Source: Saksenaea vasiformis B4078
Lineage: Eukaryota; Mucoromycota; Mucoromycetes; Mucorales; Saksenaeaceae
Direction of reading: 5' to 3'
Length of the DNA: 64,000 nt
NCBI GenBank assembly: GCA_000697055.1
Contig: JNDT01002413.1
Span: forward strand, 124,001 to 188,000
In this document: positions 7,367-32,300 of the stretch, one piece after another
Layout of the letters: each line of letters opens with the position of its first letter
Numbering within the stretch: position 1 is the stretch's first letter
Made by a program: the position numbers and the translations under genes
Notes under the pieces: generated by a model
Database searches by the model: none
What the model was told of the DNA's origin: nothing
The model's input: only the letters and a program-made list of their open reading frames with translations

Positions 7367-9207
7367 AATAATCTTGGCCGTAGTTTCCCGATTTTCACGA
7401 TCAACGAGGATATATAAAAAAAATAAAAAAGTTAGAAGCAAGACTTATGCAACACGTATATTATTATCGAGCCATGTTTGAGCATCTACTGATTTGATTC
7501 CGAATATCCAAAATGCATACTTTCTAAGGAACCGTTTGGTGTGTAATGTAAACCCTGGTCTTGAGAGGGTCATTGTAATTGGCGAGCACAAAACGTATGT
7601 ATCAGATGGTATATCCCTTGGAACCCATCTTACGCTCGTGAGCGAAGTTATCTTCTATTGATAATGTAAATGATCAGCATGTCAGCCTTAGGCTCTTGAC
7701 CTAGCAAACAGCGGATGACGGCAATATAGATGTCTTGCATTTTCTACAGTCAAAAATGCTACACTATAAAACCCTTACCGGCTCTTCCTCTCACATAAAA
7801 TACACAACTTTTCGAATAATCGAAGCACATAGCCTTATTTCTTCACATTTTCACATATGTACCATTTTTTTTTCCTTTTAGCCGAAAAAAAAAGAGCTAT
7901 TGTATTTAGCTGTTGCACTGGTGCTTTCTTGTAACATTTTGACGTGTTTAACGAGAGTGAATTTGCGCAGACTCGATTGGGTGGATGCTTTCAATCCGAG
8001 TGAAAATGGAGATCTTATGTTCACATAATAACATAACTGCACGTACTTCATGTCATGTTCATTCAGCTTTAATGATGCATGAATCCAGGGATAACACCGC
8101 GATTCTATACATGAACACCACTGTCTCAGATAGGCAGAGCGTGAAGGGATGCAATGAGGATCATGTTGTAGATGGTTCCTTTATAATCTGTCCAGTAAAC
8201 GTTGCCCTTTTTTCTTCTTTACCTTTTGATTATTCTATTGCTTTATTTTCTCCTGTAAGTGCTGCAGCAGTAATCCATTCATATGAACTAACAGTGCGAT
8301 TGGTAGTTCGAGTTGGTTGAAATGAGCTTTTCGTCCCATAGCCTTCCCACTGTCTTTGTATTTCTTCTCACAAATGACATGTTAACAACACCTATTTTAT
8401 TTTCTCTCAGCAGAAAATTTTATTTATTCATGGACGCAGGATTCATTCGGGACACCGTAAATTTCCACCCGATAAACGGCAAGAAACATGGACAATATAA
8501 TGCACATGTCATCCCAGTTACGATATGCTTACATCATAGACTTACGGCTTCTGTTCCGATCGTGAGGGCGAACGCTGCCGCAATAAAAAAGGAAGCGCTA
8601 TTTGTTTGTTTTTTAATTCTTCCTTCCTTTATCCCGAGAAAGTGAGTAAGGAATGTAAGAGTTCCTAACTCAAAAGCGCAGTACGTACGTTGGCGACCAC
8701 TAAAAGATTACGATAACATCAATTCTCCAATTGCAGTCATTCTTGTGATGAAAGTAGGTCTCGCATTGACCATCGTGTGGAATGTCGCAATTGCGCATAA
8801 AACGCGGTAGGGTGAAGATCCCGAATTCTCGTTGCCATCGTTGCAGCTATCTATACTTTCTTTAATACCGCTAAAATAGTTGGTTTTTTAAACGTGTGGA
8901 CGTTCGTTTCCGTCCACCTTTTTGACAAATGAATAAATGCGTTGTCGAAAGCGGTAGTGACATGAGCCAGGTTGACTTGCGGAACTTGAATAAAAAACAG
9001 GAACCACACCGTTTTTATGAACTTTGGAAGCGCATATAAAAAAATCAGATCGATGAAACCTTTTGAAAATTCTGAGGGACATCAATTATTTTATTTTAAA
9101 AGGACTAGGCTGCTCCAGGCGGCAGGTCAGCTATGAAATTGTCGAGAAAACCAGTTTTCAAACTCCTACGCCATAAGTATTTTTTCTGATGAAAAGCGGA
9201 CTAGGTA
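7367..9207. other. intergenic, no gene recognised
   Basis: 1.8 kb between CYT1 and the tRNA gene. Two overlapping plus-strand frames (7985..8320, 8313..8645) have no family motifs and show no splice-linked continuity. Several T/A runs are present. I see no repeat or RNA gene here. Confidence 0.4.
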
Positions 9208-20546: not shown

Positions 20547-20880
20547 TATATTACACCATGGCATAGAGATGACGATTGGACGCAATCTTGACGGAGCGTG
20601 AATCAAAAAAGCGACTTGGCCACGGCGCAGTTGAGGCAATGATCTATCGTCATACCATCGGTTGAATGGATTCTGCGCAAAAGAAAAAGTTGTGTGCTTC
20701 TGTGATGTATCTATAAATCAATATCAACGCATAAAGAAAAAAAAACATAAATTGTATTCCTTTGCTCTTTCTATATATATATATTTTCCTTGTAGAATCT
20801 TGGTGGGTTTCACCTGGTATCAACAGTAGTTTATGTATCGATGGAATAACGTTACACATGGGGGAAGGGCTGCTTTTTTT
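20547..20880. other. convergent intergenic region
   Basis: 334 nt between LSM1 and the small minus-strand gene. It holds A-runs and a TA repeat (TATATATATAT, near 20,772). No gene is recognised. Confidence 0.4.
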
Positions 20881-21114
20881 TTATGACTTTGGTGATCCCC
20901 CGAACCATCTTGAGAATTTACGTTGGATCTGGTCAAAGGCACCGCCAAGAGCAGCTAATGGCATGATAAAAATGCCGCAGCATGTGCAATTATTGATTGT
21001 GGATGACTCGCCAGGCGCCGTAAATGGGTCCTGTGTTGGATGTTCTTCGCGTTCCTCTAATGTCGGTACTGTTCCATAATGAGGTTCGGCTGAAGATATA
21101 ACGGTAGAGGACAT
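20881..21114 (-). CDS. small Cys/hydrophobic protein of unknown function
   Basis: A single-exon frame of 77 aa starting at ATG 21114. A longer frame extends upstream, but its extra residues (FFFSLFFFLYS) come from A-runs and are unlikely to be coding. The first half is polar and Glu/Thr/Pro-rich (YGTVPTLEEREEH). The second half has NCTCCGIFIMPLAALGGAF, a Cys-led hydrophobic segment long enough for one membrane pass or a lipidated anchor, then a basic amphipathic tail (QIQRKFSRWFGG). I do not recognise a family. It lies just outside the proposed Fanzor element end, so it may be host or element-derived. Coding status rests only on composition. Confidence 0.45.
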   Translation of the reverse strand: MSSTVISSAEPHYGTVPTLEEREEHPTQDPFTAPGESSTINNCTCCGIFIMPLAALGGAFDQIQRKFSRWFGGSPKS

Positions 21115-21229
21115 GGTACACTTCCTTTCTTTCTGGGTTAACGAATAAAGAAAAAAAAAAAGAGAAAAAAAAAAGAGTATCAACTCAGACGATTTTTGAT
21201 CGTAAAACAGGTGCACTACGAGCCGCGAA

Positions 21230-21324
21230 AATTTCACGGGTAAAGTCACCGAACGTGAATTTGACTGGTTCATACCTAGGCACCTACGGGCGCATGGCCC
21301 AATCCACTTGTCGAGGTGGATTTA
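21230..21324 (-). ncRNA. candidate guide (omega-like) RNA / element-end hairpins
   Basis: Immediately 3' of the Fanzor stop codon, three compact inverted repeats stack within 50 nt: AATCCAC/GTGGATT (7 bp, 8-nt loop, 21301-21322), GGGC/GCCC (5-nt loop, 21288-21300) and TAGG/CCTA (21277-21286). TnpB and Fanzor guide RNAs are known to be encoded at the 3' end of the nuclease gene up to the element end. The position fits; the RNA itself is inferred from structure alone. Confidence 0.35.
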
Positions 21325-24074
21325 CTACTGCAATTGTCTTGAAGGTCTGATAAAGCAAGCTGGCCGTTTTCGATGCGCGAGCATGGACGCTGCAATGGAA
21401 GCAATGTTATGGGCAGCACTCCCATCTCGATGGAATGTACCCCCACAAGCATCGCAAACCAAAACACGAATGATTTCCTTTTCATCACCATCTTCCATCT
21501 GCTCTCCTGGACTGACCGGTCGCCTAAGATATCTTACGAACGAGACTCTTCCGTGCTGGATGCATCGGCAACACACTTTGGACGTGCAGTATTCGTCCAC
21601 ACGGCACACCTGGTGCTGTTCGCCGGAAGCTCGGATATGGAGTTTCAACCTCTCCATTATCCTGCTATCCATCGGAGACACTGCTCCTCGACGATTGCTA
21701 CGGGAGGTGCCATCCACGCCGAACGCGAATACTATCGGTTTTCTTGGTTCATTCACTGAATCTAGAGGACCTGTTGCTGTCCTTTCCGTTGTGGACTTCA
21801 TGATAGTGCTACATGCTTTGTCGAGATTCGAACAGATGGAGAGCGACGTATCCCAAGCCCGACGCATAACCGATCTGCTTCCGTAAAACGAACGTAGCCG
21901 TAGCCCTCGGTCTGCCTCCTGCCAGGCACGGATATACAACAAGGTCTTCGCCATGTTCGAGCTTTGTGATCCACGACTCAAGGCAGTTTCGTCCTCATCG
22001 ATACCGCATTGGCTTTACGGTCCTGTAGCCAAGTAGCATTCATGGAATTTCTACCGTACAATTGGTTGCGCTTTACCATTAACTGGACGCCTTGTCGATT
22101 GGGAGCAGTAGGTAGGAAGAAGGACGCGACGGCGAAAGTCTCACCCAGATCAAGTCCAACGATACCGTCGTAATCAAGGAGAAGGTTTGTTTCAGGTGCC
22201 TCCCTTTCTTGGCTTATTCGTTGACTAAGTGTCCGTATTTCGGGCAGAAAATGCTTCTTCTGCTGAAACGATGACTCGCACCAGTCAGTGTAGATGGTAA
22301 GTAGCCGTACGCCATCTGTCCGGAACATCGATTTGGTTGTGTACCTGGGCAGCTGCGTGCCAGGTATACGTTTGCTGAATTTACGTTTATATTCTCTGTT
22401 GCTTTTCTTCACGCTACCATCTCCACCGATAACTGCCTTGACCGACACGTCAAACAAAAAGTTGAAACAATCTCCTCGCTTTCGTACAGGAGCTGCCTGA
22501 GATTGATAAGTTCGCCACGATTCTTTCAGCCCGCTTTCTGTAATGAGGTATGACATTAACACTGTTCCTAGACTCTTCAGTAGGCATTACCTGTAAGTCG
22601 TCGCCCAACATAGAAGTGCTCGATGTGCGTCAATATCTGTTTCACATGCTCGTTGGTGAAAGGAATAGAGACATTGCGGCTTGGGGCAACGGGGCATAGG
22701 TGAAACGATATCTCTTCTGGGAATTCTTCCAGGAAGCTAACAAGTAGAGGTAAAAATATATGACCTTGGGATGGTTTGTCAGTTTCCTCTTCTTCAGCCT
22801 CTTTTTCTCCATGCGAATGTTCCCCTTTGCGTTTGGAAGGGATCTTTGCTGACGTTGACTGTTCCTTTTTTGGCGCCGGACGAGAGATACCCAAACAATC
22901 AAAAAGATCAATGGCGTGCCCCTGGAATTTTGCAGCCACTTGTCAATGATCCGTTCAGCACCCGAAGTGGAAACCAATACATCAATTGAATTACCTTATT
23001 GCTGATCTTCTTCTGTACCAGATCCTCCAGATGATGTCGGTGAAGAAGTACAAACTCGTTGATCTCGTCTTGAATAGATTCTGGCAGCTGATTCACAAGC
23101 TTTTCAAAATCTTTGCAACCCTCGACATTGATTACTGTCTCTTCCCTCTCGTCCACATCCAATGGAACATGCCAAACTTTGGCGAATATGTGTTCTTGGA
23201 GGATGTCTTCCTTGGGCCAGTTATCTGGAACGGCTGCCTTCTTTCGTAGGCTTGCTGAGATATCCTCCAGCGATAGCTGGTCTCCTTCAGGCATTGCTTT
23301 ACGCAAAAGTTTCTTCAACTCCCCAACGAATTGATTAATTTGCTTGCATACTGTACGGTCAAGGTTTTGAACCATCGCATCAACTTGCTTCAGGGGCTTA
23401 TCCATGTCACTACCATCATCCACTGTTCGGTGCATCAGATACCGAGTAAATTCCTGGTGCTTTGGCCAATCTTTGGGCTGCGTCGCCATGCTTTCCAGTA
23501 CAACGCGGATGTACTTCACAGAATTCTGGATAAAATTGGATAGGGTCGATTGCCGAAAGTTTGTGTCTAGCTCGTCTGCTATTTGCATCACGACGCTTCG
23601 GCGGTAGTCCGATGTTGGAAGTTTGGGAACTCTGCTCCAGTCGTCCTTGTACCCCAGAAACCAGACCTTGCGGGCGTAAAGAAGAACATTACGCAGTTCC
23701 GGAGAGTCGTCTATCAGCATGACCAGTGGGCCAATGCTTCTGTCATCAGGATACGCGATGTAACTGTTCGGATTGTGGGTTATTGCGTTGCATGGCAGAA
23801 CAGGCTCTTCAACAGCTGCTGAATATATGACAGGGGAATGCCGATTTGCCTTTTTTGCTCTATATTCCATGGCCAGATAGAGAATCCATGTCCAGGTTTT
23901 GGTCGCGTTGTCTAACGTTGGCTCGTTACTACGTGTGTCAGCCAAAGCCCGACCGCTTCGGAAAAACGCACCGAAGACTTTTTCTCGACAGGTAGGTTCT
24001 AACGTGTGAGTTGCACGAAGTGCAATGTTCGCCATTTGTAATGCAACCTGTCGCACAAGAGACATATCCCGTAC
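21325..24074 (-). CDS. Fanzor (eukaryotic TnpB-like) RuvC nuclease, one apparent frameshift
   Basis: Coding blocks complement(21325..22537, 22591..22921, 22995..24074). The RuvC fold has all three acidic motifs: GIVGLDLGET (RuvC-I Asp), CRVDEYCTSKVCCRC (RuvC-II Glu, opening the zinc ribbon) and CDACGGTFHRDGSAAHNIA (closing ribbon, RuvC-III Asp). LRSFYGSRSVMRRAWD and the WLQDRK stretch also match Fanzor/TnpB. Fanzors are RNA-guided DNA endonucleases carried by eukaryotic transposons. The 600 residues before RuvC-I are charged and unassigned, with a likely nuclear-localisation block (PSKRKGEHSHGEKEAEEEE region). Near 21,980 the frame breaks after TKLP; one additional base would continue it into LSRGSQSS. 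This may be a real lesion or a sequencing error. The upstream junction at 24074 is in phase with the XPG exons, so this may be the C-terminal half of a fusion. Otherwise ATG 24065 could start it. Confidence 0.85.
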
Positions 24075-25863
24075 CTATTTGTCGAGAACTTCGCAAATGC
24101 CTTCAGCTTGGAGTTTGGCTTTCTGCTGTTCTGATGGAAACCTCGCGCTTGCCGCTGCCAGGACGGACGAATATAGGCCACATGTGTAGGTAGAAGTTAC
24201 TCGCGTCCACTCGTGAAGCTGTACTTCCTCACCGGTGTTTGGATCGTTGTACGACAGTCGCTTTGTATCCTCTTTGCGCTTGCTCGATTCGCCCTGATTA
24301 ATTGATTTCTTTTTCTGCTTCTTACGTTTGCTTCCTGCTGATGGTTTCTTCGGTGGTTGTCGGCCATGAGATAGCGTCCCTTTCTTTTCTTCACGAGTGT
24401 TGGATTCGGTGATCAGCTCTGATTTAACAAAGGTGTATCGGCTCCCTGTGCGTGGAGCTGGGATGTTTGGAGTCAACACCTTCTGGGCGCTTTGTACACC
24501 GTCAACCTGCTTCAAGATATCTTTGCTGATTTCTTTCATCATTCCACAACCTAGGCGAATGCTAGTTCCGTCTTCATGGTAGTTCACAGTTGGAACACAG
24601 AATTGATGCAAAGCGACATCAAATCGATTACGCTGGCTGTCAGAGACATGGGTAAGACCATCAATCACCTTTTACGAAAAGTTAGCCCCTGTTCAAATGG
24701 TAGTAATATTACATTATGCATCAGCTCATCGGCAAGCTCGATTTGTATTGGAGTTTCCCCAGCCATTTTTCGTATCGTAGCAAAGGACACCCGCCTGATA
24801 TTTGGAGCGTAGTCGTTACCAGACATGGATGCGATTACCGCAAGTCGCCTCTCTGCCTAATATTGGCTTTAGCATAAGCGAATTCAATTTCCTTTGCGTA
24901 CCAGTTGATAATTCTGCTCTTCGCCTATTTTTAGCCCAAGCTTTTCCAAAACCGTGGACTTCTTCGTGACGCGGGCTGGCATCTGCTCCTGTTTCCAATC
25001 GATACGCAATATTCTCTACAGACGCAATTAGTCGTGCCGATGGATCATGTACGTATTATCTATACTGGTATCTCTAGGGCTCTACCATACACGAATAGGT
25101 CTCCATCAGGAGAAAGAATGGCGCTTTTTTTGGAGGACTGGTTTGCAAGATGTATTACACAAGGATCAGCTTCGAACGGCGCACGGAGGAACGATGTACG
25201 TTGGTGGTCGTGCGGTGAGTACTCATGGATGTTTAGAACTCCGAAAGTCTGTCATGCGAAAATTGATCAGTTAGTTTTTTGATAATGATAGTCAACGAAG
25301 TACATACCTGTAATATGGCATGCTTAATTTCAGGACTGAAGCGGATACATGCTCGAGCTTGCCTTCCAAATATTTTTTGGTACTTTTCCTTCTGTAACCC
25401 CTTTCTCGCTACCCGAAATGCGGCATTGAACGGAGCTTTAGACGATTGCCGTCGATACTTATGTGTCTGTTCCTTTGCTGGCAATTGTTCTCCATCGAGA
25501 ACCAAGCAAATCTCGCGATTAGGTACTTGAGTGCTGCCGAGTCTTTCGCAATAACCCAGAGCGGCCACAACGAAATGTGAGACTATCATCTGGGGGTTCC
25601 TGTCTGGCTTCTTCAACGCGACACCTATTATACTAGGTTAGCATTACGCTATTAGTCAATAGAAAAGTGATACCTTTAAAGTTGCACAAGTAGTGGGTGA
25701 CAAAATCCACTGCAGCAGTTTCTTGAAGTAGAAAATAGAAAACGGCGCAGAAGTCAATAAAGACTATTTGTACGCCGCCCACATCCAGAAAACCGACAGC
25801 GGAGGGAGCATCTGGATATGCTTCAACGTTTTTGCAAGAGTGATGTAGTCCTTTGACGCCCAT
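23999..25863 (-). CDS. XPG/FEN1-family structure-specific nuclease, N-terminal half of probable XPG-Fanzor fusion
   Basis: Exons complement(24201..24668, 24713..24856, 24902..25015, 25066..25248, 25308..25624, 25674..25863). It starts MGVKGL, with the Gly2 that XPG/FEN nucleases need at the active site. XPG-N acids: VFIDFCAVFYFLL and LVLDGEQLPAKEQ followed by KYRR. XPG-I: APFEADPCVIHLA then ILSPDGDLFVYG, giving the E-x-D and D-x-D pairs. A later SGNDYAPNI supplies the final metal-binding Asp. All acidic positions expected from FEN1 are therefore present. A Lys/Ser-rich basic region (PSAGSKRKKQKKK) follows. From the donor at 24200 two acceptors keep phase: 24155 gives a 52-codon exon ending at 23999 (523-aa stand-alone enzyme), or 24075 joins the Fanzor frame (about 1,346 aa). 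Family members cleave flaps and junctions. A role in transposition or repair is inference. Confidence 0.85.
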
Positions 25864-25917
25864 AATGATTGGAAAATACGAATAGGAGGGTGAAATCGAC
25901 CGTATTCCTTCACAAGT

Positions 25918-25927
25918 CTTATATATT
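25918..25927 (-). promoter_or_regulatory. TATA-like box of the XPG-Fanzor transcript
   Basis: On the minus strand TATATAAG lies 55 nt before the ATG at 25863, a plausible core promoter position. It is inside the proposed element end (inverted repeat near 25,932-25,943). Confidence 0.4.
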
Positions 25928-25984
25928 GTTACCCGTGTAAGCTATATGTTTCACTAATGAAAAAAAAAGCTAGTTAACTGTTAA

Positions 25985-27492
25985 ATGATTACAACGACTT
26001 AACCACCTTCGGGAATTAGAGGGTGACGATGAAAATGAAAAGTTATCATGCGTAATATTTCTTTTCTATGACTCTGTGTGCAAATTATGCCGTTTCGTGG
26101 CACAGACGATGGTCGGAATTCCAGCGATACAAAGCTGAATTCCTCTTGAGCTTGCGTTGCATTATATGGTGGTTCTTGCAGCCGCTGACTAGAAAGCTTT
26201 TTATCCACGGCGCGTTGCACATGCCAGAGACATAACCGAAGTCGGCGACCGTGCCAAGTAGATTCGATGGCATACATTTGTGCCTGATCTTTGTCGGAAA
26301 ACACAAACTTTGGGATGAAGCTTTGATCTGTAAGTTCACGTAAAAACGCGCTTATCGTTGCAGTTTTGGCATGATCAAGTTGTTTGTCTGCAAGTCAAGT
26401 GTCAATAGCAAATATGCAATGGGGATGCCAACGCCGTTCACGTTTCCAACGATCCCAAACAGTTCACATCCTAGTCTGTTTGTCTTATAAGTAGAGTCTA
26501 TGTGAAACTCTTCAACATATGGACACTGCGAGAGCGTTGTGAATAAAGGCGTGGTAAATCCAAATGCAGTGATTCCATTTTCTTGAGTCCAGTAAGCCTA
26601 ATTTTTTTATTTTTTGTCTATTTAATATATTACACTAGACTAACTACTTGTTACCACATCTAACAGCAATAACAAGTTATTTTCGATTCATCGTACCTCT
26701 CTGAATCCTTTGGGATTGTATCTTTCCACCAGCAAACGCGCAGACTATACTTCATCGTTATGGAGCTGATATGATCCTTTATGTCTCACTCCACCAGTAA
26801 TAGACCTGCGATGAAGTAATGATGGACCCAGGGAACTGTTCAATAATTGAACGATATAATGAAGGGGCATCTCTGGAGTGAGCGTTACTGGCAATATACT
26901 CACGGATTTCAGCTGAGATACTAGTCTGCTCAGTAGGCTCTGGAGGTAGATGGGCAGTACAATGCGACACGCTCAAGTGAATGCAAGGACCATCATAGTC
27001 GATAAGACCTTTGATACGTCCATTGCAATTGTATGTCACCATTCTCCTCTGGAACCGCGGACGTTCTGCTTCAGGTACCTGCTGCTGAATGGACCTGGCC
27101 TGCAAGCAATATGCGACAAAAGAGATTGACGACTTCAATGTAGAATCGATAACTGTCATCAGATAGTAACGAAATCCATCACATTGTTCAAATGCAGTAA
27201 CCATCTTCTTAGCTAGATCACCATCCGAAGCAGGCAAAAAGGATGGCTCTAAAAAGATATACCCTTCGAAGCAACGGTCTCCATCCTCATTCCCATTATT
27301 TCGGGGATAATGGTCAGCCAGCTCATCGAGAAAAATTATATCCGCCAGTGAAATGGTCTCCCTAGGCGTCTGGCGATCACGGCAAGTAAAACATGTCTTG
27401 TAGAAACGTCCATTCCTTGCAGCGAATAGGTCGACATTTCTCTCACATTTGCGGCTTGAGCAATATCTAGCGGTGGCAGTAGCAGTGGACAT
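25985..27492 (-). pseudogene. decayed MULE (Mutator-like) DDE transposase
   Basis: The 5' block 26779..27492 (237 aa) has a Cys-rich N-terminus (YCSSRKCERN, CFTCRDR) and the MULE N-domain ending in TSSQVYYWW. Downstream, SARLLVERYNPKGFRE, then after an intron AYWTQENG and the catalytic FHIDSTYKTN, then FSDKDQAQ and LCLWHVQRAV, are all MULE landmarks. They do not lie in one frame: there is a shift near 26,783, an in-frame TAG near 26,750 just before SARLL, and another shift near 26,385. The third catalytic residue region is not clear. This is a class II DNA transposon relic with its reading frame broken at least three times. Terminal repeats were not found. It lies 120 nt upstream of the XPG-Fanzor start and on the same strand. 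Confidence 0.8.
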
Positions 27493-27976
27493 AGTGATAG
27501 ATGAAGAGTGAAGTGTCGGTTAATTGGTTGGATACAACAAACAGGAAGAAAACTTTCACAGGAACAACAAACAAAAGCCTCAGGCCACTTTCACGGGTCA
27601 CGTGGGCAGTTGGCGGACTGTAAATCTGTGATCTTTAATAAACCGAAAATGCTCGTAGTGATGATCTGTGGAATAAGTTGTCCAATGTATTCCTATGATT
27701 ACGCAATCTCATTCATAGATGCATATCGTATGGAAAGCACAGGATGTACATAAGGTAATCCAGGGTAAACAGGTGGCTGATAGTCTGTCCGTAAAATACT
27801 TGACGGATAATCAATTTTTTTGTAGCAGCCACCTGAAAGAAACCAATGGTTGATTCAGGTCACCACCAAAAAGAAGTACATGAATTCATATCCCGCTTTC
27901 TTTTTTTTTTTTTCTTTTAAAAAGGGGACGAGAACCCTTTCTTTTCAACTACTTCTGTATTTCTTTACGTTTACCT
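27493..27976. other. intergenic, MULE flank and methyltransferase promoter
   Basis: 484 nt between the MULE relic and the divergent methyltransferase gene. It contains a T-run near 27,901-27,914. I could not identify a MULE terminal inverted repeat or target duplication. Confidence 0.35.
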
Positions 27977-29099
27977 ATGAACACCATACATCCAAACCAA
28001 TTACTAGATACCATTCACAATCATATCTCCCAAGTGTGGACACTCAAGAAACTGGGCAATCATGACTTACATCAGCACTTGGATCCTACTCTCGATCAAC
28101 TGGACGACCTGATACGCTGGTCTTATGATCGTTACACAAATATTGAGCTTGAGAACGGCAAAGAAGAAGAAAAAGAAGAAGAGAATTACCGTGTTCATCC
28201 GCAACATATTGTTCGGGCAAATCAAATTTCCGGCGCTTTCCTTGTAAAGATTGTTGCCGGTGAAATCATAGTTGGCGATGATAAGGATGACGAACGTATG
28301 GAAAAGGCTGCAAAAATTTTGGCCCATTTGTCAGGTCGAGGAGGTAAGGGGAAATGCCGAATTTAAAGTTTTTTAATCGGCAAATGGAAATCAGCGGCTG
28401 GTGCCATAACACGCACGTGGCATATCCCTTACCTAAATAGAGATGGCGATCGTAACAAGTTCCAAGTAAAGTTACATGAGCCGAGTTTCATTGGCAACGA
28501 TATTGGATTTAAAACATGGGGTGCAGCACCACTGCTCGCAAAGTAAGTTTGATTGTTTCTAACGGAACCTTTCATATTGAATGTCCTGATGTAGGAAACT
28601 TGTCCAGCAAGATATTGTTACCAACTTGTCAACAAAGCGCGTACTGGAACTTGGTACAGGAACCGGCATGGTCGGACTAGTTTGCGATATGTTGGGTGCA
28701 AAAGAAGTGCATGTGACGGATTATCATCCAAGAGTGTTGGAAAACGTCGCTATCAATGTCAAACTCAACGATTCCAAAGCAACGATCTCAAAACTTGATT
28801 TTATTGAAGTTGCGACTGGTAAATCGCCAGAATGGCAAGGAAAGAAGTTTGATCTTGTCATTGCAAGCGACCTACTTTATGAAATGGAACATGCTGAATA
28901 TCTTCCTGTCGCAGTCGAACAATTGATGGAGGATGAATTTATTTTCATGATTCCCTTGAGAGATACGCATTGGCCAGAAGTTCATCGATTCGAGGAGAAA
29001 ATGCAACAAATAGGTTTGGTTAAACAACGTGCAATCGATTCAGAAAGACAAGAAGAAGAAGGCATGGTGCGATATCGCTACTATGAATATACTCGATGA
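27977..29099 (+). CDS. METTL21-like (family 16) protein methyltransferase
   Basis: Exons 27977..28343, 28395..28542, 28595..29099; 339 aa. A polar N-terminal domain (about 1-120) contains an acidic run (ENGKEEEKEEE). The class I SAM fold begins with FIGNDIGFKTWGAAPLLA, where the family-16 signature GxxxW sits. Motif I is VLELGTGTGMVGL, the acidic ribose contact is HVTDYHP, and the post-II motif is FDLVIASDLLYE. Relatives methylate lysines of translation factors, chaperones and other proteins; the substrate here is unknown. Exon phases all agree, and introns are 51-52 nt. The C-terminus ends in YRYYEYTR, a beta strand typical of the Rossmann-fold end. Confidence 0.85.
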
Positions 29100-29329: not shown

Positions 29330-32300
29330 TTATTTTTTTTGCATATTTCGCCGTCGTTGTATGATACGAAGATTATTTTGCGCATATGTGTTTCCTTGAT
29401 CTGCCGCCTTTGTGTACCATTCAATCGCTTTGGAGTAGTCGACATCTACACCATATCCTTGGTAGTACATGACTCCAAGACTGTTTTGCGCATCTGCATT
29501 TCCTTGATCTGCCGCTTTTGTGTACAATTCAATCGCTTTGGAGTAGTCGACATCTACACCACGTCCTCTTCGGTACATGAATCCAAGACTGTTTTGCGCA
29601 GATGCATTTCCTTGATCTGCCGCTTTTGTGTACCATTCAATCGCTTTGGAGTAGTCGACATCTACACCATATCCTTCATCGTACATGACTCCAAGATTAT
29701 TTTGCGCATATGCGTTTCCTTGTTCTGCCGCTTTTGTGTACCATTCAATCGCTTTGGAGTAGTCGACATCTACACCATATCCTTGGTAGTACATGACTCC
29801 AAGACTGTTTTGCGCATCTGCATTTCCTTGATCTGCCGCTTTTGTGTACAATTCAATCGCTTTGGAGTAGTCGACATCTACACCACGTCCTCTTCGGTAC
29901 ATGAATCCAAGACTGTTTTGCGCAGATGCATTTCCTTGATCTGCCGCTTTTGTGTACCATTCAATCGCTTTGGAGTAGTCGACATCTACACCATATCCTT
30001 CATCGTACATGACTCCAAGATTATTTTGCGCATATGCGTTTCCTTGTTCTGCCGCTTTTGTGTACCATTCAATCGCTTTGGAGTAGTCGACATCTACACC
30101 ATATCCCTTCTGATACATGAGTCCAAGATTATATTGCGCATCTGCATCTCCTTGATCTGCCGCTTTTGTGTACAATTCAATCGCTTTGGAGTAGTCGATA
30201 TCTACACCATATCCCTTCTGATACATGAGTCCAAGATTACATTGCGCAGATGCGTGTCCTTGATCTGCCGCTTTTGTGTACAATTCAATCGCTTTGGAGT
30301 AGTCGACATCTACACCATATCCCTTCCGATACATGAGTCCAAGATTATATTGCGCATCTGCATCTCCTTGATCTGCCGCTTTTTTGAACAATTCAATTGC
30401 TTTGGAGTAGTCTCTGTCAAATCCGAGACCATATAGGTACATGAACCCGAGGCTGCATTGTGCATCTGCGTTTCCGAGATTGCTCGCATTTTCACACCAC
30501 ATGGTTGCTTTTTTGCACCATTCCATGGCTTTTTCTTCGTTCTCTTTCACTCCTTTTCCCCAATAGTATAACTCGCCAACTCTGACTTGGGCAACTCCAT
30601 GCCCATTATCAGCCGCCTTCCTATACCATCCCATTGCTGCGGCATAATTCCGATCTATACTTTGACCGTATCTGCAAATATCTCCAAGTTTGATGTATGC
30701 ATCACTGTTGCCCCGATCAGCTGCCTTTTTATACCATTCAAATGCTTGCTTGAAGTCTTTATCTACACCCTTCCCAAAATAATACATATCTCCACGATGG
30801 ACATGCGAATCTGCGTCGTCCTGTTCGGCCGCATTCCCATGGGAATTGACATCGTCGTTGTCGGTTGGACTCCAATGACCCTCGTCCCTGTCGGAATCAT
30901 CCGCCGGATTTTGCGTATCTCCGAGCCCAGGATCAACTGTCCTTTCCGCCACCTCAATCTTGTATAAGTCGGATTCATACATTCTACACCTAGTGTTGTT
31001 CATATCTTTTGGTTCATTTCGGGTAACTTCAGCTTCGCAATCAACTATTCCTTTGTCTAAGTTATTACTGCTCATATTGAGCTTATCTACGATATCCCTG
31101 TTGCTGCGTTTGTTGTCGTCTTTGTTCCGGTCGTCTTTTTCCTTGCTATGAACGTCTTTTCCTTGCAAGGAAACGTTTTTTTCGTGACCCATTCGTTCCC
31201 ACTGATCTTCTTTCTTTCCAGATTTGCCTCGGATATCTCTAGTTTCCCGCTCACTATCGTTAGGAGCTCCAATATATCTTATATTTACTGCTGGGCTAAA
31301 GTTGTGATCGAAACAGCACTTATCGTACATCTCCTTTACTTGAGCACGTTCTTGTTCCTCAAGAATATCATACATTGGCCTCATATCTTTGAACTGGATC
31401 ATTGCAGGATCCAGTTTAGTAGTCTCTTTCCAGTTTTCCAGTCCATCCGCAAAAAAGGAACTGATGTCACCACCTACCAAAAAGTTGTTTAAAAGTTAGA
31501 AGTAGTATACACGGAAAGCTACCTATGATCTTCCAATATGTGCCGTCCTTGAGGGCTTTTGCTATGCTTTCAGCTACGTCATTGCTAGCATTATCTTCTT
31601 CACACAGTTCTTCCACTTCAGCTCTGTTCTGGATTTTTAGATGCTGCTCCGTGCAAAGTAGACCGCCTAAGTCAGGATATTACATTAGTACTATGCACCT
31701 GGATATGTGCAGTACCGAGTAAGATTCTTGAAGGGTAATAATATCCAAATCGTCCGAAAACGACCTGTAACGCTTCATACTTTTCCTTGCTAGTTCCTTC
31801 CTTTAAAGCATCTTGCACAGCATTCTTGAACGCAGTAGTAGATTTGACGACTTCCGAGGAGACATGCACCTAATACGAACCACATTAACAGGCATACACA
31901 CGAGACGTCCGGACAATTTCTTACTTCTCCCCAGGAAATATAAGACACGGTGTATTTGACCGTATTATCTGGGACCAAACGCCGATTATATTTAAAGGAG
32001 TAACAACAAATTTGGGCAGCAATGTCGTACACAAATGTTTTGGATGGAAGGGCGTGGAACTTGTCGTCGAGGAGTAGCTCATCCATGACGTTGTTCGTGC
32101 CGATGGTTCTTGTAGTTGTGTATTCCACGAATGGCTTCTTGCAAGAATATACATGAAGAAGTCTTTGCATTTTATCCTTTCCATATTCGATCTCTATAGC
32201 AGGGTATTCGGCCGTACGACCATCAAAATGGAAGCCGCGCGTGCATCGATTGGCAACGTCATATGTTAAAAACGAATCAACCTTTTAGATGCATCGAATG

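Follow-up and report, generated by a model that had tools for sequence, protein, structure and literature searches.

Described Fanzor1 proteins mostly comprise 600-700 amino acids, according to the accessible text of PMC11423790. The solved example SpuFz1 (PDB 8gkh) carries the RuvC residues D-E-D, a C4 zinc ribbon and an RD motif, is hosted by a DNA transposon and goes along with a structured right-end RNA that contains the terminal repeat. In Mucorales, the MuDr-type Fanzor1 elements ROr-4, PBl-3 and MCi-4 are known (PMC3627910), and PpFz1 of Parasitella parasitica is likewise a Fanzor1 from a fungus of this order. The extra domain of PpFz1 is a cyclophilin-binding insertion in RuvC, while an XPG domain is unmentioned in the accessible part of its description (PMC11423790). 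The gene of Saksenaea vasiformis B4078 described here shares the listed features of SpuFz1, its right-end RNA being a predicted one, but differs by its length of ~1,390 codons and its N-terminal XPG-family nuclease. It lies in the window, i.e. the entire stretch of 64,000 nucleotides that was analysed (C662:124001-188000 of the 38.7-Mb draft genome; contigs are denoted by C and a number). On balance, the gene is best read as the decayed copy of a transposon-borne gene for an EXO1-closest 5' nuclease, a basic linker and a Fanzor1-type nuclease, which together may cut and resect DNA.

Translation and motif reading placed the gene on the minus strand, from an ATG at 25863 to a stop codon at 21325-21327; unless stated otherwise, all window features mentioned below are on this strand. 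The first half contains MGVKGL, the XPG-N and XPG-I acids and GNDY, and the second half GLDLGET, VDEYCTSKVCCRC and HRDGSAAHNI. This head-to-tail arrangement on one strand, with these motifs, had been described in an earlier sequence-only reading of the locus and was recovered when the gene was re-read. Five introns of 44-59 bp interrupt the XPG half; their phases are 1, 0, 0, 0 and 0, so that the earlier assignment of phase 0 to all of them holds for four. As judged from translation and alignment to EXO1, exon 1 (25674-25863) encodes the MGVKGL start and the first catalytic Asp, exon 2 (25308-25624) the gateway Asp, Lys and Arg in DGEQLPAK..R, and exon 3 (25066-25248), which also has a sub-threshold Pfam match, the FEADP and SPDGDL acids of the XPG I-region. 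Exons 4 (24902-25015) and 5 (24713-24856, with the GNDY loop) were placed by translation. Exon 6 (24078-24668; translation and comparison with sister copies) covers the end of the XPG core, a basic linker and the conserved segment TSTYTCGLYSSVLAAA, which runs on into the Fanzor half. The Lys/Arg-rich part of the linker (24258-24350) is a possible nuclear localisation signal.

The XPG half amounts to 513 codons and is followed by a TAG at 24077-24075, after which the frame runs on into the Fanzor half from 24074. There, an N-terminal region (22995-24074; frames and copy comparison), presumed to be REC/WED, is followed by an intron at 22994-22922 (phase 0), a middle exon (22591-22921), an intron at 22590-22538 (phase 1) and the RuvC exon (21325-22537; frames and Pfam) with GLDLGET, DEY, the zinc ribbon and HRD. 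The single frameshift that had been noted before is located in this last exon at ~21978-22014, where the frames 21978-22586 and 21325-22014 overlap. The window copy is hence a decayed fusion with one in-frame stop and one frameshift, and its joined length is that given above instead of ~1,346 residues.

The evidence for a single polypeptide comes from other copies in the same genome. Genome searches yielded matches to the RuvC half at no fewer than 29 places on 20 contigs (E up to 0.001) and to the XPG half at no fewer than 85 places on 29 contigs (E up to 1), both place counts being lower bounds. XPG accompanies RuvC on 16 of these 20 contigs, each time upstream of it and on the strand that it occupies, and the two halves are set apart by a single codon in all ten copies read of group B, the subfamily that includes the window copy. 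The common strand and order together with the constant spacing place the pairing beyond chance. At the junction, nine of the ten copies (C567, C545, C57, C277, C618, C289, C401, C265 and C501) have GAA; the in-frame TAG (24075-24077) is private to the window. C567 and C57 are 99.8% alike and could be two assemblies of one copy; C545 is close kin to both, C277 groups with C618, and C289 with C401 and C265. Given this kinship, the nine GAA copies count as four lineages.

The sequence-only reading had joined the halves by a phase-0 splice from 24,201 to 24,074. In the sister copies, the 41 codons that would be excised encode conserved protein and lead into the coding GAA. Between lineages, the final 51 codons on the XPG side, which include this segment, show far fewer amino-acid-changing than silent differences (proportions pN 0.08-0.34 vs pS 0.56-0.94), and the splice was therefore ruled out in favour of an in-frame stop without an intron. 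On the Fanzor side, length-matched pairs gave pS 0.62-0.88 vs pN 0.24-0.28; for C289, C401 and C501, unaligned differences in length inflate the values. Conserved stop-codon readthrough, suspected from the constant 3-nt gap, was also rejected, as the codon is GAA in the nine other copies. In a second subfamily, group A, which is 26-28% identical to group B-type sequences over the fused exon, the junction lies within one unbroken frame of 775 (C238), 783 (C376) or 519 codons (C428), and in C232 no break occurs over the 100 codons read at the junction. Judged from these copies, the fusion is the ancestral state of the family, and the family almost certainly encodes XPG and Fanzor as a single polypeptide. 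The claim of one protein accordingly stands for the family, backed by the sister copies, group A and a protein of Apophysomyces ossiformis (see below), and fails for the interrupted window copy.

Several observations weigh against an intact and active fusion. Within lineages the ratios are near-neutral (0.43-1.07, on few differences), as expected of decaying copies, and stops or frame breaks are found in several copies (C401 not counted); recent copies may thus be decaying. Expression and activity of the fusion are predicted only, and post-translational cleavage is conceivable. A Fanzor without an XPG partner had been named in advance as a finding that would speak against the coupling; within this genome, the 16 contigs mentioned above carry both halves, and four of the 20 (C434, C419, C391 and C319) have no XPG match. 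Of these four, C434 has an internal deletion, and in C419 similarity ends at 7404. Conversely, 13 contigs match XPG but not RuvC. Matches to the N-terminal half of Fanzor were present on two of them, C57 and C265, both cut by contig ends, and on C280. On C637 and C226 the XPG match runs to the contig end; as these contigs end right after it, they provide no evidence for XPG without Fanzor. Follow-up covered these five of the 13 contigs, the other eight being C380, C562, C451, C551, C542, C475, C88 and C257.

Protein searches returned named relatives of the fusion exclusively from Apophysomyces, another genus of Mucorales. The annotated A. ossiformis protein P0008 (1,036 amino acids) starts at the XPG gateway, includes the XPG I-region, GNDY and the junction and reaches VGLDFGE (RuvC-I); as annotated, the beginning of the XPG domain and the later RuvC motifs are missing from it. 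A protein of Apophysomyces sp. BC1021 (597 amino acids) comprises the XPG tail, linker and junction, and one additional protein, P0011, matched. These searches reach close relatives only; the one that returned A. ossiformis scored 7,997 best-sharing candidates. Structure prediction lent no help and counts against the assignment: AlphaFold models were unusable both for the A. ossiformis protein (mean pLDDT score 47.8) and for the RuvC exon of C238 (32.9). Fold comparison of the former aligned mainly a helical stretch (806-880) to unrelated proteins, with no Fanzor, TnpB or XPG chain among the 50 matches listed.

The C-terminal half is predicted to be a Fanzor1-type RNA-guided RuvC nuclease. The Fanzor1 motif D-X(125,275)-[TS]-[TS]-X-X-[C4 zinc finger]-X(5,50)-RD (PMC3627910) is complete in all three copies tested (C289, C618 and C238), with first gaps of 181, 187 and 197 residues, respectively, and RD placed 5 residues past the last Cys. 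In the window copy, the frameshift splits the motif. A profile of eight RuvC-half sequences retrieved SpuFz1 as best solved relative (E 0.0011), compared with E 0.13 for a single sequence.

For the N-terminal half, a profile of three sequences matched human EXO1 (3qea) from residue 1 to 238, with E 3.7e-6 for the whole sequence and 6.7e-5 for the stretch. A single sequence reached E 0.014 against solved structures. Apart from the MG-x-x-GL N-terminus, the alignment covers Asp30, Asp78, Glu150, Asp152, Asp171, Asp173 and Asp225, which are the seven metal-binding acids of EXO1, and its gateway residues Lys85 and Arg92. Acids and gateway Lys/Arg are kept in the aligned sequences of both subfamilies, and probably both nuclease centres were functional in the ancestor. 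Evidence to the contrary is the Pfam scores, which remain below the curated cut-offs (XPG_N 19.3 of 22 bits; XPG_I 22.1, 18.6 and 16.5 of 24.9 bits); the two domains, 3-8 bits short, are nevertheless in correct order and place. The domain shares its start, acids, gateway residues and alignment with the EXO1/FEN1/XPG family and differs from it in being transposon-borne, fused to an RNA-guided nuclease and under the Pfam scores. Five loci exceed the XPG_I cut-off (34-105 bits) and are presumably repair genes of the host itself. They are situated on other contigs or at other places on C662, so that the XPG domain of the element is not a recent copy of a host gene.

In group B the fusion is borne by MULE-type elements, a kind marked by terminal inverted repeats (TIRs) and a target site duplication (TSD) of 9-11 bp. 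TIRs and a perfect TSD of 9-10 bp were found in four of the eight group-B copies tested: C618 (~5.6 kb, TSD GTTGTACAAG), C277 (6.0 kb, TSD CGAGAAAGA), C545 (8.1 kb, TSD TTTCTTCAT) and C401 (6.2 kb), where the TSD is an AT repeat and hence weaker. The test was negative for the window, C501, C161 and C283; for the last two, the sequence available upstream of the right end was shorter than 3 kb. The right terminal repeat of the window copy is at 21208-21240 (repeat/TSD comparison), and searches for repeat ends and TSDs did not find the left end. MULE transposase frames occur within two of these elements, on the same strand in C401 and on the opposite one in C545. In the window, C57, C265 and C501 such frames lie upstream of XPG; none was detected in the C277 and C618 elements. 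With TIRs, TSDs and no transposase, the latter two resemble ROr-4, PBl-3 and MCi-4, which have 9-bp TSDs; the known elements differ in that no XPG domain has been described for them in print (PMC3627910), and some of the present copies also carry a MULE transposase.

A MULE transposase-like gene of the window (25999-27519) adjoins the XPG start and is 77% identical at the DNA level to C42 over 26094-26940. Its N-terminal frame (26779-27519) has no Pfam match of its own and has kin frames elsewhere in the genome. The first (26352-26597) and last (25999-26394) parts of the transposase domain follow, with matches (E 0.0011 and 0.00056) under the Pfam cut-off. This gene may share one element with the fusion, but no left end with TSD was found here. 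Group A elements have other termini (left ATACA.., right ..AGTAC). Two of them, C428:129279-136890 and C232:18321-~25860, are ~7.6 kb long with short imperfect inverted ends; a TSD was not resolved on inspection of the group A ends, and none of the upstream frames listed was recognised as a transposase, though no family search was made on them. At least two kinds of element thus seem to carry the fusion.

Between the Fanzor stop and the right terminus of the element lies a candidate omegaRNA scaffold (21208-21322; covariation and folding), a non-coding segment that begins 2 bases past the stop codon. Over these last 115 nt the window is 74-83% identical to four copies, compared with 58-70% upstream of the ATG and 56-59% in shuffles. 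The RNA alignment comprised nine of 14 right ends, leaving out C501, C283 and C257 (internal deletions) and C653 and C435 (no coding tail); the truncated right end of C419 was also outside it. On the nine ends, a four-helix structure of 22 pairs has 96.4% of cells paired and six pairs changed on both sides, and sliding it by 1-3 columns leaves 0-1 covarying pairs. Six covarying pairs were reached by 6 of 500 shuffles, and the numbers of covarying cells and the covariation score by none of 500. The window sequence itself folds better than shuffles (z -2.53), and RNAalifold agrees on helices 1 and 4.

Other observations speak against parts of this structure: further pair types were reached by 303 of 500 shuffles, RNAalifold draws an alternative to helix 2 and omits helix 3, and the right ends of C653 and C435 are without the 5' arm of helix 1. 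Helix 3 is based on how the window sequence itself folds and on a single covarying pair, which occurs in two related copies. Rfam gave no match in 20800-27700. Fanzor1 guide RNAs have been predicted to be three-stemmed with the TIR included (PMC10711439, as far as accessible), and a structured right end containing the terminal repeat agrees with this picture. The structure is likely to be an omegaRNA, as predicted from covariation. The two right-end sequences without a Fanzor coding tail, at C435:93458-93564 and C653:108219-108330, perhaps resemble the loci that a figure legend of PMC10432273 calls 'ghost' and that stand alone.

If the right end supplies the omegaRNA, the guide would be the DNA just outside the element, and the target, in turn, the empty site. 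Such a site could arise by transposase-mediated excision or be present on a sister chromatid or homologue that lacks the element. The Fanzor part would cut the empty site under RNA guidance, and the EXO1-like part, supplied in cis, would resect the 5' ends of the break. Resection would steer repair towards homologous copying of the element and away from end joining. This cut-and-resect role of the two domains is quite possible, if short of probable. The wider proposal of a natural RNA-guided cut-and-resect enzyme, by which a transposon breaks and resects its empty site and is recopied by homologous repair, is made tentatively. It would be the natural counterpart of EXO1-Cas9. In human cells, human EXO1 residues 1-352 fused to Cas9 raised homology-directed repair and lowered non-homologous end joining (PMC11107001). 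Both designs place an EXO1 catalytic domain on an RNA-guided nuclease, and one of the four arrangements made had EXO1 at the N-terminus. The editor differs in being man-made and in having Cas9 in place of Fanzor, and a point against the proposal is that it worked best with EXO1 at the C-terminus, the domain order opposite to that found here (PMC11107001, accessible text).

The sequence-only reading had suggested that a guided dual nuclease processes flaps or junctions during insertion or excision. Processing of ends in these events is plausible, and as the closest solved relative is EXO1, resection of ends is no less likely than the processing of flaps or junctions. The main rival to resection is cutting at flaps and R-loop borders: the XPG part would recognise the border between single and double strand at the Fanzor R-loop or at a staggered cut, trim there and so complete or widen the double-strand break. 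XPG-family enzymes act on single/double-strand junctions. In favour of trimming, the catalytic residues are present, and purified XPG is reported to have cut the 3' flank of an R-loop in earlier work (PMC7286691). The profile match counts against it, since the closest relative, EXO1, is a 5' exonuclease; EXO1 also has flap activity, however, so that sequence cannot separate the two roles. As the function of the XPG part, trimming is unlikely. Alternatively, the XPG part might serve transposition by opening hairpins, trimming transposon ends or processing the gaps that a MULE transposase leaves, the fusion to Fanzor being co-delivery only. The gene does sit in MULE-type elements, some with transposase frames, but group A elements, whose termini differ, carry the fusion too, and no transposase was recognised among their listed upstream frames, on which no family search was run. 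The fusion thus looks untied to one transposase, and a role of this kind is improbable.

A catalytically dead XPG half with a DNA-binding role would be in line with the weak family scores of single sequences and with an activity that is only predicted. It is quite improbable in view of the acids and gateway residues kept in both subfamilies. The window sequence by itself reads as two separate proteins, with XPG ending at the TAG (24075) and Fanzor beginning at an ATG nine bases on. This stop is absent from nine sister copies and from group A, and eukaryotic mRNAs seldom re-initiate in such a way, which leaves two proteins an extremely remote prospect. Resection by a fused EXO1-type nuclease, the reading preferred here, bears on the open question of how a Fanzor benefits its transposon: it points to control over the repair of guided breaks, an answer that the EXO1-type fusion renders testable. 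The fusion is also a natural version of a construct that gene-editing laboratories made by hand, and a guided nuclease that evolved in nature together with a domain for end processing is a lead for genome editing.

No prior description of an XPG-family-Fanzor fusion was found in the open-licence papers searched; MuDr-type Fanzor elements of Mucorales and Fanzor1 enzymes were already known. The search returned no paper with both Fanzor and XPG and none with both Fanzor and Mucoromycota, and its sole co-mention of XPG and TnpB concerns Cas12a. Viral proteins have been termed 'Fanzor flap endonuclease homologs' (PMC11071296), a term that may or may not refer to a fusion.

Two further features of the window lie beyond the transposase-like gene. 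A frame on the plus strand (28590-29099) contains LELGTGTGMVGL, a putative methyltransferase-like motif. At 29369-30412, a 108-bp unit is repeated ~9.7 times in tandem (90% matches), with an additional period of 324 bp; this array possibly codes for SEL1/TPR-type repeats, and kin sequence of it is present on C476.

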